Assembly: GCA_008974855.1 (NCBI GenBank)
Contig: BFAR01000119.1
Span: 1-6,651, forward strand
Reading direction: 5' to 3'
DNA: 6,651 nucleotides
Source: an archaeon MnTg01
Lineage (GTDB): Archaea; Thermoproteota; Nitrososphaeria; Nitrososphaerales; Nitrosopumilaceae
The position numbers were made by a program, and so were the translations under genes. Below, in pieces: positions 1,878-6,600 of this stretch. Under the pieces are notes generated by a model that worked only from the letters and a program-made list of their open reading frames with translations, ran no database searches and was not told the origin of the DNA. Each line of letters begins with the position of its first letter. Position 1 is the first letter of the stretch.

Positions 1878-2524
1878 TGATAGTGTAATACAATTTCATT
1901 TCCTGATTTACAAATTTTTTTCAATTTTAATTTTGTAGCTTTTTTAATTATTGAAAATCCTTCCCCATCAACTAATGTAATTGAATTTTTTCCACCAATA
2001 ATATAAGGTGTTATTGTAATAATTATTTCATCTACAAGATCTTGTTTGATAAATTCCCAATTAACAGTCCCACCACCTTCAACAAGCAGAGTTTTGATTT
2101 TTTTCTTAGATAAAATTCGTAATAGATTTTTTATGTTTACTAATTTATTTCCTGTGATAATTATCTCAAGAGGATGTTTTTTTAGTTTATCGATATTTTT
2201 CTTTGAGGCTTTTTTTGAAACAGCTATTATTGTTGGGATTTTTTTACAAGTCTTAATAATTTGGGATTTTTTATCTATGTTTGCTTTAGAATCTAAAATT
2301 ATACGTAATGGATTTTTCCCTTTAGTATGTCTAACTGTTAAAAAAGGATTATCTCTTTTTACCGTATTTGAGCCAACTAAAATAGCATCAACCTTTGAAC
2401 GTAATTTATGAATTCTAATCTTATCTTGTTTTGAAGATAATTTAGAATCTCCTGTTTTTGTGGCTATTTTCCCATCTAGTGTCATTGCTGCACTAAGAAT
2501 TACTTTGGGTCTAGATTTTTCCAT
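1874..2524 (-). CDS. arfC: 2,5-diamino-6-(ribosylamino)-4(3H)-pyrimidinone 5'-phosphate reductase
   Basis: This NAD(P)H-dependent enzyme reduces the ribosyl chain of the diaminopyrimidinone phosphate to ribityl, an early step of archaeal riboflavin and F420 precursor synthesis. The 216 residues match the stand-alone archaeal/fungal reductase, homologous to the C-terminal domain of bacterial RibD, in length and motifs. These are SAAMTLDGKIA at 11-21, VGSNTVKRDNP at 50-60, the PLRIILDS strand at 72-79, the nucleotide-binding VEGGG at 148-152, and ITPYIIGG at 171-178. No deaminase domain is fused to it, so deamination must be done by another protein. It is the last gene of the operon and overlaps the amidohydrolase by 14 nt. 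A GGAGG on the - strand (2540-2536), 11 nt before the ATG, could serve as ribosome binding site. Its stop shares CTAG with the convergent gene. Confidence 0.93.
   Translation of the reverse strand: MEKSRPKVILSAAMTLDGKIATKTGDSKLSSKQDKIRIHKLRSKVDAILVGSNTVKRDNPFLTVRHTKGKNPLRIILDSKANIDKKSQIIKTCKKIPTIIAVSKKASKKNIDKLKKHPLEIIITGNKLVNIKNLLRILSKKKIKTLLVEGGGTVNWEFIKQDLVDEIIITITPYIIGGKNSITLVDGEGFSIIKKATKLKLKKICKSGNEIVLHYH
1915..1921 (+). terminator. Possible T-run terminator of the membrane-protein gene
   Basis: Seven T residues lie 38 nt after the stop of the 1488 gene, followed by further T-rich tracts. Archaeal termination can use T-runs without a hairpin. The run sits inside the antisense arfC coding region, where Lys codons also create T-runs, so the call is weak. 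Confidence 0.25.
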
Positions 2525-3701
2525 GAACTATTTTTCCTCCAATCATTACTGCTCGAATTGTGGATTCACTAGCCCTTTGAACAATTGAAGCATAAGGATT
2601 ATGCATTGGTTCTAAGTCAAGAGCATGTTTATCAATAAACACACAATCTGCATACTTGCTAGTTTCAATTACACCAATTTTTTTTTGTAAAAGTTTACCT
2701 GCATTTACAGTTGCCATCTTTAGAATTTGTTTGGGTTCAATTCGCTTACGATTCATACCCATTGTAACCTTCCATAAATAATCCATTTCACGAAACATGT
2801 CAGGAGAGTTTATCATGACGTTATCTGTTCCAATTGCAATATTACATCTAGCTTTCATCATTTTTTCAATATTCGGAATACCTTCTGCTAATGCCGCGTT
2901 AGCTCGTGGACAAATGACAATACCGTGAGTCTTTTTTGCAACTTGATGTAAATCTTTTTGAGAAGCATATGTCATATGAACAAGAAAATGAGGTTTCAAC
3001 AATAAAGCTCGTTGAGTTTCAGTTTTCTTGGTAATGTTCTTGGATAGATTCAAGCTCTGAAGAGTTTCTTCAGAATGAATTGCTCGTATTTTTGAAATTT
3101 TTGAATAATATTTCAGTAAAGCGTTACTGTTTTCATTTACACCGCTGATCCCTATTCCATCACATTTTTTTAAAAGAATTTCAAGCTCTATTTTTTTTGA
3201 AGGAGGAAAAGGAGTGTTTTTTCTGATCTGTTTTTGTTCCTGATAATATTCAAGTCTTCCAAGTATTATTGATCTTATTGGTAGATTAGATAGTACTTTT
3301 TTTAATAGAAGTATTCCATCTAAGCCACCTTCTCTAAAATCAACAAACGTAGTAATCCCTTTTCTTAACATAGAAAGACATGTATTTTTCATAAAATTTG
3401 AGAGATGAGATGGTTTGGATTCTCTTAGAATTTTTTGTTTAGCCCCTGTGATAGGATGAATTTTTGCGTTAACGCTACTGTTTATAGAAAAATCTTTTCC
3501 TATTGAATCACCTATATGAGAATGCGAATTAATCAAACCAGGAATTATTAATAATCCTTCACAATCAATTGAATCTTCATTTGAGCTAGGTCTCAAATTT
3601 GGTTTAATTTTTTTAAATATCTGTTCGGAAATTTTTAGATTTGTGGATGAAACAAAAATTAAATCTTTACCATAAAGAATACTTGCATTTTTTAAAAGCA
3701 T
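2511..3701 (-). CDS. Amidohydrolase of the ATZ/TRZ/guanine-deaminase class in the riboflavin operon; candidate missing deaminase
   Basis: This 396-residue metal-dependent hydrolase has the composite N- and C-terminal beta segment and central TIM barrel of the amidohydrolase superfamily. Visible active-site residues are H60-S-H62 (after PGLINSH), H209 and E212 (IHSEET, the HxxE motif of aminohydrolases), H242 (LVHMTY), CPRAN at 264-268, and D293 in GTDN. This full set is typical of enzymes that deaminate heterocyclic rings, such as guanine or cytosine deaminases and ATZ/TRZ hydrolases. The gene overlaps arfA by 10 nt and arfC by 14 nt, so all three are probably co-translated. Archaeal riboflavin synthesis needs a deaminase acting on the 2-amino group of the ArfC product, long without an assigned gene as far as I know. 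This protein is a good candidate. A less likely alternative is the ArfB formamide hydrolase step, or an unrelated purine/pterin deamination. The class is sure; the substrate is inference. Confidence 0.88.
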   Translation of the reverse strand: MLLKNASILYGKDLIFVSSTNLKISEQIFKKIKPNLRPSSNEDSIDCEGLLIIPGLINSHSHIGDSIGKDFSINSSVNAKIHPITGAKQKILRESKPSHLSNFMKNTCLSMLRKGITTFVDFREGGLDGILLLKKVLSNLPIRSIILGRLEYYQEQKQIRKNTPFPPSKKIELEILLKKCDGIGISGVNENSNALLKYYSKISKIRAIHSEETLQSLNLSKNITKKTETQRALLLKPHFLVHMTYASQKDLHQVAKKTHGIVICPRANAALAEGIPNIEKMMKARCNIAIGTDNVMINSPDMFREMDYLWKVTMGMNRKRIEPKQILKMATVNAGKLLQKKIGVIETSKYADCVFIDKHALDLEPMHNPYASIVQRASESTIRAVMIGGKIVHGKI

Positions 3702-4447
3702 GATGTTTCTAAAATTTCAGGTTTTTCTTTTCCTGAATCTCTAATCTCCCTTATTTTATCAAGTGATTTAGTTGCAAGCTTAGCAGCCTCACGTGATGTT
3801 TTTCCAATTCCGATTCCACAATTAAGTAATATATTTAGATCAGCCTTTGCATTTTGAATGAATTTTTGAGCAAATTCTTTTGCATTATCGTTTGAAACAA
3901 CCATAAAATTATCACCTCCCATAAAAAAGGCCATAGATTTTTTTTCTAGAAAAAATTCTAACATTGAAGAATATAATCTAAACATTGTAGATGATATTTC
4001 ATATGGAGATTTTATTTTCCTTGCAGATGATAAATCATCTACATCAAAATGTATAATAGTTACTTTCTGATCCGCTTTGCCATCTACAAATCCAAAGATG
4101 TTATGTTCTTTGTTTAATATGACTAGAGATTGTTTTCCTTCATGTGCTTTTAGATTTGCATCAAATGGAGTATGAGCAAATCCAATAGACATCGTTAATT
4201 TTAGTTCAAATAATTCTTCTAATTTTTTTTGTATAGCAATATGATCATTTAATGTTAATCCATTTGTTACAACAAAAAACTCATCAGATCTATTTAAAAA
4301 TGCTAGACAGTTTTTGTCAGAGAATAATTTTTGAACTTCTTTGTATAATGATGCTTGCAACATTTGTAATTCATGTTCTCTATCACTACCTAAAGTTAGA
4401 GTCCAAGGTCCATATTCATTTATTTTTATGATAGTTATTTGTATCAA
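3692..4447 (-). CDS. arfA: GTP cyclohydrolase III (FAPy-forming, archaeal riboflavin pathway)
   Basis: The enzyme opens GTP to 2-amino-5-formylamino-6-ribosylamino-4(3H)-pyrimidinone 5'-phosphate and releases pyrophosphate, the first step of riboflavin synthesis in archaea. The 251 residues begin with MIQITIIKINEYGPWTLT, closely like the N-terminus of the Methanocaldococcus enzyme. Two tandem nucleotidyl-cyclase-like (GGDEF-related) domains are visible. Domain 1 has NRSDEF at 52-57. Domain 2 has the metal-binding strand HFDVDD at 133-138 and MGGDNFMVV at 176-184, followed by GIGIGKT at 211-217. The start is TTG, fixed by the conserved N-terminus and lying 1 nt after the ribH stop, so translational coupling to ribH is likely. 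The end overlaps the amidohydrolase start by 10 nt. ArfA makes a formylated product, so a deformylase must exist elsewhere in the genome. Confidence 0.95.
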   Translation of the reverse strand: MIQITIIKINEYGPWTLTLGSDREHELQMLQASLYKEVQKLFSDKNCLAFLNRSDEFFVVTNGLTLNDHIAIQKKLEELFELKLTMSIGFAHTPFDANLKAHEGKQSLVILNKEHNIFGFVDGKADQKVTIIHFDVDDLSSARKIKSPYEISSTMFRLYSSMLEFFLEKKSMAFFMGGDNFMVVSNDNAKEFAQKFIQNAKADLNILLNCGIGIGKTSREAAKLATKSLDKIREIRDSGKEKPEILETSCF

Positions 4448-4448
4448 T

Positions 4449-4862
4449 TTATCTAATTTTTTCTAATTCCTGTGAAATTTTCAAAACTGCTTCAATTGCC
4501 CTCTCAGATACGGGTCTAATTCTAGCAAGAGCCTGTCTTTCTCCCATTCCAGGTCCTGTAATACCTAATGAAACTGGTTTTTTGTGTTTTAAAGAAAGTT
4601 TTGCAAGACGATTTACTGCGACATTTGCAATTAGCTCATCGTGTTTAGTTTTTCCTTTAATTACTGCACCAAGTGTTACAACCCCATCTACTGCTTTTTT
4701 TTCTAGTAATCTATCAACAATTAATGGCATGTCAAATACACCTGGAACTTTACATGTAAATTTAACATTTAATTTCAGAAATTTTGCTTTTTCTAATGCA
4801 ATATTGAGCATTCTAGATGTCACTTTGTCATTAAATTCCGAAACCACTATAGCAATATTCAA
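4449..4862 (-). CDS. ribH: 6,7-dimethyl-8-ribityllumazine synthase, archaeal type
   Basis: RibH condenses 5-amino-6-ribitylaminouracil with 3,4-dihydroxy-2-butanone 4-phosphate to lumazine; family members form pentamers or 60-mer shells. The 137 residues carry F10-N11 near the N-terminus (substrate stacking), VPGVFDMP at 39-46, GAVIKGKTKHDE at 65-76 with the catalytic His74, and the archaeal version of the C-terminal site, GITGPGMGERQA at 100-111, in place of the bacterial GVLTTxN. Length is normal for archaea. The start is TTG, fixed by the standard N-terminus MNIAIVVSEFN. It lies 2 nt after the ribB stop and 1 nt before arfA. Its substrates come from RibB and from the ArfA-ArfC branch, and its product goes to RibE. 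Confidence 0.95.
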   Translation of the reverse strand: MNIAIVVSEFNDKVTSRMLNIALEKAKFLKLNVKFTCKVPGVFDMPLIVDRLLEKKAVDGVVTLGAVIKGKTKHDELIANVAVNRLAKLSLKHKKPVSLGITGPGMGERQALARIRPVSERAIEAVLKISQELEKIR

Positions 4863-4864
4863 AA

Positions 4865-5539
4865 TTAATGCACCTTAGCGTATTCTAATAATTCTATACC
4901 ATCAATAAATGGAATAGCATTTTCCTTTGCGTATTTTTTTGCTTTTTCTACTGAAAGGGCGGAATATGTTTCTGCATCCATCATTTCACAAATAGCAGAT
5001 ATAGGATTTAATTTTGCAAGCTCTGTAAGATAGATGGACATTTCTGTATGTCCCCTTCTATTAGATAATAAACCATCTGCAGCGATTAAAATTGGAACGT
5101 GACCAGGAGTTTTAAATGAAGAGATGAATTTGTTATGAGGATTATCAGCTTTGTAAAGATTAGCTATTTCACGAATTGTAAGAGCTCGATCTCTATCAGT
5201 AATTCCTGTGTAGGTTTGATAATGGTTAATTGAAATTGAAAAAGTAGGGTGATCTCCATATGGAGCTAAACCCATTATCATTTCCTTAGATTTTGAATCA
5301 AAATGTTCAGAACTAGATAAAATTTCATGCATGTAATTTAGACCAAGCTCGTTACCTAGAGAGTTGTTTATTGCAAGACATATCAGACCTCCTGCATGTT
5401 GACGCATGCGTGCAATATGTTCTGGTGAAATAAACTCTGCAGCAACTACCATGTCGATTTCGTTTTCTCTTCCACTAGAATCATGGAGTAAAACAAATTC
5501 TCCTCTTTTAAGAGATAATATAGCATCATTAAGTGACAT
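4865..5539 (-). CDS. ribB: 3,4-dihydroxy-2-butanone 4-phosphate synthase
   Basis: RibB converts ribulose 5-phosphate to 3,4-dihydroxy-2-butanone 4-phosphate and formate, giving the four-carbon unit for lumazine. The 224 residues match the stand-alone enzyme, with no fused GTP cyclohydrolase II domain. Motifs seen are the acidic loop GRENEIDM at 23-30, RQHAGGLICLA at 46-56, TGITDRDRALT at 111-121, TPGHVPIL at 144-151 with His147, RRGHTEMSIYL at 161-171, and E185. In the acidic loop, family members often read D/E-x-RENEGDM; here Ser-Ser-Gly precede Arg and Ile replaces the Gly, a mild deviation. It is the first gene of a five-gene operon, with a TATA box 26 nt before its ATG and a pair of palindromes upstream of that, making it the likely control point of the pathway. 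Confidence 0.95.
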   Translation of the reverse strand: MSLNDAILSLKRGEFVLLHDSSGRENEIDMVVAAEFISPEHIARMRQHAGGLICLAINNSLGNELGLNYMHEILSSSEHFDSKSKEMIMGLAPYGDHPTFSISINHYQTYTGITDRDRALTIREIANLYKADNPHNKFISSFKTPGHVPILIAADGLLSNRRGHTEMSIYLTELAKLNPISAICEMMDAETYSALSVEKAKKYAKENAIPFIDGIELLEYAKVH

Positions 5540-5560
5540 AACGAGAATTAATTTTCTTTG

Positions 5561-5570
5561 ATTATATAGT
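5561..5570 (-). promoter_or_regulatory. TATA box of the ribB-ribH-arfA-amidohydrolase-arfC operon
   Basis: On the - strand ACTATATAAT is the best TATA box of the window, centred 26 nt before the ribB ATG, so the mRNA should start at or next to the start codon. The TFB recognition element would lie just upstream, inside the proximal palindrome at 5571-5588. Confidence 0.7.
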
Positions 5571-5607
5571 TTACTAAAAAACTAGTAATTACCAATAAAG
5601 TGGTAAT
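5571..5607. promoter_or_regulatory. Two abutting palindromic operators upstream of the ribB TATA box
   Basis: Palindrome 1 is TTACTA-N6-TAGTAA (5571-5588). Palindrome 2 is TTACCA-N6-TGGTAA (5589-5606), extendable by one pair to 5588/5607. Both have perfect 6 bp arms and a 6 bp spacer, the half-sites differ at one position (TTACYA), and the two 18 bp units touch without a gap. Palindrome 1 directly adjoins the TATA box, so a bound protein would block TBP/TFB. Many archaea control riboflavin genes with RbkR, a riboflavin kinase fused to a DNA-binding domain; a regulator of that kind is a natural candidate, but its binding motif cannot be confirmed here. As RNA, palindrome 2 could also form a 7 bp hairpin just after the ribE stop, with a T-run downstream. 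Confidence 0.65.
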
Positions 5608-5610
5608 AAA

Positions 5611-6201
5611 TTAGGTTTGTTTTAGAATGTATTTTCCTAAAATATCGGTTTCAATATTAATCGTGTCGCCAACTTTTTTCGAATGAAAATTTGTCACTTT
5701 CATTGTATGAGGGATTAAACATACTGAAGCTTTATTTTTTGTGACATCAACTACTGTCAAACTGATGCCATCAATTGCAATGGAACCTTTCTTTACAATA
5801 AATTTTGCTAATTTTTTTGGAACTTCAAACCAGACTTTGATCTCTTTTGGTTTTTTTTCAATTTTTTTTATTATTGCTACACCATCCACATGACCTAACA
5901 CGAAATGTCCTTCCATTCTATCACCAACCTTTAAGCTTCGTTCAATGTTAACTTTTGAACCTTTTACTAAGTTTCCAAGATCAGTTTTTTTTATAGTTTC
6001 ATCAATCATTTGAAAATCACATTTATTTTTTGAAATTTTTGTAGCAGAAAGACATACACCGTTTAATGCAACACTTTGCCCTACTTTGAGTCCTTTTGCA
6101 TTCTTGCCCAAATCAACTGTCATTTGAAAAGCACTACGATTTTTTGTATTTTGAGTAATTTTTTCAACTTTACCTACTCCTTCTATTACTCCAGTAAACA
6201 T
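5611..6201 (-). CDS. ribE: Riboflavin synthase, bacterial/eukaryotic (alpha-subunit) type
   Basis: The enzyme dismutates two 6,7-dimethyl-8-ribityllumazine molecules to riboflavin and 5-amino-6-ribitylaminouracil. The 196 residues show the two tandem lumazine-binding beta barrels of the trimeric bacterial enzyme. Barrel 1 has MFTGVIEGVGKV at 1-12 and LNGVCLS at 46-52. Barrel 2 has EGHFVLGHVDG at 97-107, IDGISLTVV at 143-151, IPHTMK at 163-168, and NIETDILGKY at 182-191. Many archaea use instead an unrelated pentameric synthase (RibC) that resembles lumazine synthase, so this form suggests an ancient gain from bacteria. Lys-rich composition and AT-rich codons match the neighbours, so the gene is well adapted to its genome. 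It has its own TATA box and is separated from ribB by 71 nt. Confidence 0.95.
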   Translation of the reverse strand: MFTGVIEGVGKVEKITQNTKNRSAFQMTVDLGKNAKGLKVGQSVALNGVCLSATKISKNKCDFQMIDETIKKTDLGNLVKGSKVNIERSLKVGDRMEGHFVLGHVDGVAIIKKIEKKPKEIKVWFEVPKKLAKFIVKKGSIAIDGISLTVVDVTKNKASVCLIPHTMKVTNFHSKKVGDTINIETDILGKYILKQT

Positions 6202-6223
6202 AGTATTTGATCAATTATTTCTG

Positions 6224-6233
6224 TATAAATATT
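6224..6233 (-). promoter_or_regulatory. TATA box of ribE
   Basis: On the - strand AATATTTATAC is centred about 26 nt before the ribE ATG (6201), implying a leaderless mRNA. The TTACYA-N6-TRGTAA palindrome found before ribB is not present here, so ribE may be controlled differently. An 8 bp palindrome TTGATCAA (6207-6214) lies between this box and the start. Confidence 0.55.
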
Positions 6234-6303
6234 CATGGATATACGTTATGTTGAAAAAATTGTTGATGAAATTATGTCATGACACAAAAACTAGTGACCT
6301 CTA

Positions 6304-6313
6304 CATTATAAGG
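6304..6313 (+). promoter_or_regulatory. TATA box of the Arg/Lys-rich protein gene
   Basis: CATTATAAGG is centred about 27 nt before the ATG at 6336, again fitting a leaderless or nearly leaderless transcript. It is divergent from the ribE promoter within a 134 bp intergenic region. Confidence 0.55.
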
Positions 6314-6335
6314 CACAGCAAAATTAATTCTGGTC

Positions 6336-6557
6336 ATGGGTCTATCCCGAGCAGCACGTAGTGCTGCAGCAAAAAAAGCTGCCCGAACTAGAAAAAGGAA
6401 TGCGAGATTGAAGGTAGGAGCTAGAAAGAAAGTCGCACAAAGAAGAAAACGTGTGGCTGGAAGAAAAGCTACTCGTAGAGGTACTTCACGAAGGAGAAGT
6501 ACTTCTAGTAGAGGTACTTCAAGAAAAAGAAGTACCACTCGTCGTAGTCCATTATAA
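6336..6557 (+). CDS. Small Arg/Lys-rich protein, probably nucleic-acid binding (histone H1-tail-like)
   Basis: The 73-residue protein has 21 Arg and 9 Lys, no Asp or Glu, and no aromatic residues, His or Cys, so it is extremely basic and probably disordered except for an Ala-rich helix at about 4-18 (SRAARSAAAKKAART). Residues 48-58 and 59-69 are two near-identical 11-residue repeats (RGTSRRRSTSS and RGTSRKRSTTR), resembling Ser/Thr-Arg tails of eukaryotic H1, protamines or SR proteins. Binding to DNA or RNA in the nucleoid or ribosome is the obvious guess; it is not a histone-fold protein and lacks the Alba fold. A TATA box 27 nt upstream and a hairpin/T-run terminator directly after the stop support a real monocistronic gene. 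The long open antisense frame (6272-6538) is a by-product of its Arg/Ala codons. Confidence 0.8.
   Translation: MGLSRAARSAAAKKAARTRKRNARLKVGARKKVAQRRKRVAGRKATRRGTSRRRSTSSRGTSRKRSTTRRSPL
6477..6542 (+). repeat. Two 33 bp in-frame tandem repeats in the Arg/Lys-rich gene
   Basis: Unit 1 (6477-6509) and unit 2 (6510-6542) both begin AGAGGTACTTCA and encode R-G-T-S-R-(R/K)-R-S-T-x-x. AGTACTTC/AGTACC sequences recur inside each unit. The near identity at DNA level, including synonymous positions, points to a recent duplication within the gene. Confidence 0.75.
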
Positions 6558-6559
6558 AT

Positions 6560-6590
6560 AAGAAGGAAATAAACTTCTTCTACTTTTTTT
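6560..6590 (+). terminator. Hairpin plus T-run terminator after the Arg/Lys-rich gene
   Basis: AAGAAG (6560-6565) and CTTCTT (6574-6579) form a perfect 6 bp stem with an 8 nt loop, followed by seven T residues (6584-6590) and more T-rich sequence. It begins 3 nt after the stop codon. The T-run alone may be enough for archaeal termination. Confidence 0.55.
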
Positions 6591-6600
6591 ATTTTAACTT

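Follow-up and report, generated by a model that had tools for sequence, protein, structure and literature searches.

An amidohydrolase encoded between arfA and arfC in a Nitrosopumilaceae archaeon is a likely deaminase of archaeal riboflavin synthesis

The 6,651-nucleotide stretch of DNA analyzed here (the window) is contig C119 of genome G000, from the Nitrosopumilaceae archaeon MnTg01 (1.07 Mb, 69% complete), and it contains a run of riboflavin genes in which an amidohydrolase gene is located between arfA and arfC. From sequence comparisons, this amidohydrolase (positions 2511 to 3701, minus strand, 396 amino acids with an ATG start) probably deaminates the ArfC product, and would thus supply the step missing between ArfC and lumazine synthase. 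We regard the interpretation as a riboflavin deaminase as well supported, because the operon, the conserved residues, the linkage to arfA and arfC, the co-occurrence with arfC, and a pocket signature all point to it, and we infer the enzymatic step from these. The open reading frames and their Pfam and NCBIfam matches give the minus-strand gene order ribE-ribB-ribH-arfA-amidohydrolase-arfC. The amidohydrolase gene overlaps arfA by 10 nucleotides (nt; 3692-3701) and arfC by 14 nt (2511-2524), in agreement with a preliminary description of this DNA, in which the same function was proposed.

In Pfam, the window protein matches only PF01979 (Amidohydro_1, 125 bits) and PF07969, and has no match to PF00383 or the RibD N-terminal domain (cytidine deaminase (CDA) fold) or to PF02633 (ArfB or creatininase-like). 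Its NF005552 score is 325.2 bits (cut-off, 294), and at E <= 1e-30 this model matches all four archaeal control genomes and none of the ten bacterial controls. Among named matches, the protein is closest to one from a Thaumarchaeota metagenome-assembled genome (96% identity), and a contig scan with the single-sequence query found 13 close thaumarchaeal loci. The preliminary description recognized H60, H62, H209, E212, H242, and D293 as the metal-binding and catalytic set; these residues are indeed invariant in a 78-row alignment of the window protein and 77 relatives, which share as little as 21% identity with the window protein and were chosen from 360 proteins (the best 120 matches listed in each of three protein searches). 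The overall fold of the structure model (pLDDT 95.1) is that of the ring-deaminase branch of the amidohydrolase superfamily, and the structures nearest to the model are ring deaminases.

The association with the riboflavin genes was analyzed in a near set of the 61 closest genomes, including the genome itself, and in a wide set of 300 genomes across Thermoproteota. An arfC reductase match was found in 46 of the near genomes, all of which have the amidohydrolase gene (as contig-end fragments in G026 and G031). According to the coordinates, 44 of these 46 genomes have the gene no more than 300 nt from arfC (the exceptions are G048 and G057), and thus the neighborhood is not a chance arrangement. 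Among the 15 near genomes without an arfC match, the amidohydrolase was found only in G010, as a fragment beside arfA at a contig end; the others have matches of at most 97 bits or none. In the wide set, 78 genomes have a member with at least 140 bits, and 77 of these have arfC; the single genome without it (G066) is 76% complete. In 72 of the 78 genomes, the member is on the same strand as arfA or arfC and no more than 300 nt away. This count, compiled by hand, includes one piece of split ArfA matches in some genomes, and G145, which has such a split match and an arfA-amidohydrolase gap of about 30 nt, was counted as unlinked.

The single-contig genome G006 has arfA, the amidohydrolase gene, and arfC in the same order as the window, and the upstream open reading frames match in size. 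Sulfolobus-type genomes (L046 and L047) have ribB, two ribH-like genes, arfA, and the amidohydrolase gene, and at locus L065, ribB, two DMRL-synthase-like genes, arfA, the amidohydrolase gene, arfC, and arfB, as well as an opposite-strand CofH-type gene, are found within 8 kb. Divergent members of f32 and f19 (L054 and L055) are still among riboflavin genes. Co-occurrence and clustering in genomes without a RibD deaminase or TadA-like candidates, which the preliminary description had proposed to examine, were thus observed, with linkage in 72 of 78 genomes and 21 arfC genomes that have the amidohydrolase and no CDA-fold protein. Orthologues located mostly outside riboflavin loci would have spoken against the assignment, and this was not the case in Thermoproteota.

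In addition to the catalytic set, P54, D65, K88, G115, F122, E124, G182, C264, R266, N268, P276, G291, and N294 are invariant in the 78 rows, and the positions conserved in at least 90% of the rows include D121, R123, R149, and R376. The signature D65, K88, E124, R266, N294, and R376 sets the amidohydrolase apart from catalytically complete paralogues in genomes without arfC. It was read on chosen members, namely 27 alignment rows and 40 loci (L084, L092, L096, and L107 had no match), with G300 (no arfC), G337, G253, G078, and G099 left out. Nine members unlinked to arfA or arfC in arfC genomes (f28, f38, and f48) have five to seven of the seven residues D65, K88, R123, E124, R266, N294, and R376, with exceptions at 266 (W or S) and 376 (I), among others, whereas the catalytically complete paralogues of seven genomes without arfC have at most one. 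At most one was also found in the second copy of G057 and the copy in G317, both of which are arfC genomes. In the tree, which leaves out 18 loci with no match or a non-homologous best match, the signature-less rows lie on the same side of a branch supported at 100/100. The signature is a test independent of gene order. Sulfolobus-type members bear the same signature, yet score below the NF005552 cut-off. In the five relatives of known structure with examined alignments, the signature is missing; for example, in the alignment to TM0936 (counted by hand), K88, R149, R266, and N294 correspond to E84, R148, A252, and G280, respectively, and TM0936 E84 and R148 presumably contact the substrate of that enzyme.

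The enzyme, modelled as a TIM-barrel type ring deaminase, would convert 2,5-diamino-6-ribitylamino-4(3H)-pyrimidinone 5'-phosphate to 5-amino-6-ribitylamino-2,4-pyrimidinedione 5'-phosphate. H60, H62, H209, and D293 would hold a divalent metal that activates water, and E212 and H242 may shuttle protons. The ring is a substituted isocytosine, and attack of the water at its C2 would release ammonia, as in guanine and isocytosine deaminases with the same fold. The family-specific K88, R149, R266, and R376 may bind either the ribityl phosphate or the remaining part of the ring. We place the deamination tentatively after the reduction by ArfC, and either order would be possible in MnTg01.

Several observations weigh against this assignment or restrict its range. 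Adenosine-type deaminases score equally high in the structure comparison, and the fold does not choose the substrate. Unlinked yet true-looking members are found in f38, G184, and G319, and haloarchaeal relatives on plasmids are away from riboflavin genes. Nearly all Nitrosopumilaceae genomes have one CDA-fold protein. Furthermore, 40 of the 131 arfC genomes (15 of them in f26) have no family member at 1e-30; eight of the 40, all in f26, are without a PF01979 match at 1e-10, and 11 of the 40 also have no PF00383 match. At the Thermoproteaceae-like f26 locus L058 (G076:C1:1048000-1063000), ribB, arfC, arfA, and a PF02633 gene are found together without the family amidohydrolase, and no obvious deaminase was found among 10 open reading frames near arfC in four family-free genomes (L058-L061). 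Therefore, another deaminase must exist in the 40 genomes if the pathway runs there, and the family is not the sole archaeal solution, unless the pathway is incomplete in these genomes. The proposal that the amidohydrolase is the archaeal riboflavin deaminase thus agrees with the linkage and with the co-occurrence in 77 of 78 member genomes, but it does not stand as a universal archaeal answer. We think it fairly probable that, in most arfC-bearing Archaea, the 2-amino group (for riboflavin and F420/FO) is removed by the signature amidohydrolase, which is unrelated to bacterial RibD, and that lineages without it (Thermoproteaceae-like and several others) depend on one or more additional, unrecognized deaminases.

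One alternative is that a PF00383 protein encoded elsewhere performs the deamination and the amidohydrolase has another pathway-linked job, for example, clearing a side product. The CDA fold is used by bacterial RibD, and PF00383 matches were found in each of the 37 genomes of f1, the family to which the window belongs, and in 29 of the 40 amidohydrolase-free arfC genomes. However, PF00383 is no commoner in the latter than in arfC genomes with the amidohydrolase (27 of 40), so that the expected enrichment was not observed in this wide comparison, which covered 80 of 83 genomes (Sulfolobus-type G299, G309, and G332 were left out). The sole PF00383 match found in G000 (L111, G000:C63, 2301-2837, minus strand) is outside the riboflavin cluster and is dCMP-deaminase-like; among PDB matches the protein is nearest to dCMP deaminases, and its ComEB score is 110.9 bits, under the cut-off of 219.45. 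Eight arfC relatives (G037, G038, G040, G041, G046, G048, G053, and G056) have no PF00383 match, nor do 13 other genomes that carry arfC together with the amidohydrolase, a total of 21 arfC genomes. M. jannaschii and S. acidocaldarius are the only named controls without PF00383, and both match NF005552 (at 1e-30) and ArfA. The PF00383-free arfC genomes and the dCMP-deaminase likeness in G000 lower the standing of the CDA-fold protein as the riboflavin deaminase, and we consider this alternative improbable. No other deaminase demonstrated to catalyze the step, which would have contradicted the preliminary description, was found, although Nitrosopumilaceae do carry the one dCMP-deaminase-like protein elsewhere. 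Apart from this, G025 (3.2 Mb, f1) has 13 PF00383 matches in long open frames, in contrast to one in nearly all other f1 genomes.

The pathway requires one deaminase. ArfC has no fused deaminase domain, as had been stated: among the 61 near genomes and in a set of 40 genomes, no TIGR00326 match exceeds the cut-off, and the arfC matches start at profile position 97 or later. The G020 reductase match that starts early (position 97) runs through seven stops. Weak matches to the N-terminal (deaminase) part of TIGR00326 were found at separate loci in 6 of the 61 genomes (G034 and G043 have arfC) and in 7 of the 40, none of them fused to arfC.

The amidohydrolase might also be a salvage deaminase with no functional tie to the operon, acting on guanine, a pterin, methylthioadenosine/S-adenosylhomocysteine (MTA/SAH), or 5'-deoxyadenosine. 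The linkage to arfA and arfC across lineages and the absence of the pocket signature from the five solved relatives argue against this, as do the scores of the window protein, which are far under the cut-offs of the models for guanine deaminase (TIGR02967; 70.3 bits, cut-off 375.4), MTA/SAH deaminase (NF012037; 52.7 bits, cut-off 779), and 5'-deoxyadenosine deaminase (95.7 bits, cut-off 522), so that such a role seems unlikely, to about the same degree as the CDA-fold alternative. Still less probable is a deformylase for the ArfB step, with deamination done elsewhere, even though some amidohydrolase-superfamily enzymes act on amides by hydrolysis and G000 itself has no PF02633 match. A separate PF02633 (ArfB) gene is present in 43 of the 46 arfC relatives, and the other three are 69, 77, and 84% complete. 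Furthermore, G040, G046, and G048 have the order arfA-amidohydrolase-arfC-arfB, with arfB after arfC in the cluster (cut by the contig end in G046); therefore, the amidohydrolase does not replace ArfB, and this candidate function was rejected. The ring deaminases nearest in structure likewise argue against a deformylase. At locus L108 (G035:C1:945500-954500) in a Nitrosopumilaceae relative, the PF02633 (ArfB-like) gene (2381-3103) stands alone, about 2 kb from an allantoinase/dihydropyrimidinase-like gene (5213-6595), which is nearest to those models, under their cut-offs.

The other riboflavin genes of the window, all on the minus strand, were assigned as follows. arfC (1874-2524; Pfam RibD_C) encodes a pyrimidine reductase without a deaminase domain (TIGR01508, 211.7 bits, cut-off 186.45; TIGR00326 on the reductase part only), and arfA (3692-4447, listed start TTG) encodes GTP cyclohydrolase III (PF05165, GCH_III, 165 bits). 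These are followed by ribH for lumazine synthase (4449-4862; DMRL_synthase; TIGR00114, 125 bits, cut-off 84.6), ribB for DHBP synthase (4865-5539; DHBP_synthase; TIGR00506, 215 bits, above the cut-off), and ribE for riboflavin synthase of the Lum_binding type (5611-6201; NF006767, 222 bits, cut-off 155). In L065 (4131-4601) and the Sulfolobus-type clusters, a second DMRL-synthase-like gene occupies the position of the Lum_binding ribE. Beside ribE, a plus-strand open reading frame (6336-6557) encodes a small, very basic protein of 73 amino acids, rich in Arg, Lys, Ser, and Thr and without a Pfam match. Another, on the minus strand (271-1233, 320 amino acids), has a hydrophobic N-terminus and weak, sub-cut-off Ig-like and carboxypeptidase-regulatory matches.

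Deamination is a central step, because the deaminated intermediate feeds flavin mononucleotide and flavin adenine dinucleotide and, in many archaea, coenzyme F420. Published descriptions of it differ. One in PMC13028884 states that in archaea reduction precedes deamination, the reverse of the bacterial order, and one in PMC9478397 attributes a bifunctional RibD both to bacteria and to Archaea. For Haloferax, PMC8305020 lists three remaining riboflavin gaps with candidates for two; HVO_2483 (34% to MJ0699) is given there as predicted in 2017 by another paper and as "also predicted for MJ0699". These two appear to be meant as the deaminase, since the other rows listed are an arfB candidate and the phosphatase gap. 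The view in the preliminary description that the gene was long unassigned is thus correct only in part: candidates were already in print, still marked as a prediction in PMC8305020 in 2021. No assay of the HVO_2483/MJ0699 candidate was found in the literature searched. The M. jannaschii and H. volcanii genomes match NF005552, the result not naming the matching genes, and no M. jannaschii or Haloferax protein is among the best 120 matches listed in each of the three protein searches. HVO_2483 and MJ0699 likely belong to the window amidohydrolase family, and the window gene, a new member with good linkage to arfA and arfC, supports the published prediction. With operon-linked, signature-bearing orthologues, the deaminase question becomes answerable with one purified protein. 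If the assignment is true, the misleading "chlorohydrolase" label (Sulfolobus entries and NF005552) would be replaced, and lineages needing yet another enzyme would come into view.

Among the known systems, the model above whose cut-off the window protein scores, NF005552/PRK07213, has the name "chlorohydrolase", which describes no tested function. The MJ0699/HVO_2483 prediction probably concerns the same family and step as the window gene; what sets the thaumarchaeal and Sulfolobus genes apart is their operon linkage to arfA/arfC. The amidohydrolase superfamily also includes guanine deaminase and the isocytosine-specific deaminase Vcz, but their identity is approximately 16-20%, and the window protein is far under the guanine-deaminase cut-off. 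The deaminase domain of bacterial RibD has the same proposed job as the window amidohydrolase, namely removal of the 2-amino group in riboflavin synthesis. However, bacterial RibD belongs to the CDA fold family, is fused to the reductase, and, according to PMC13028884, acts before the reduction.
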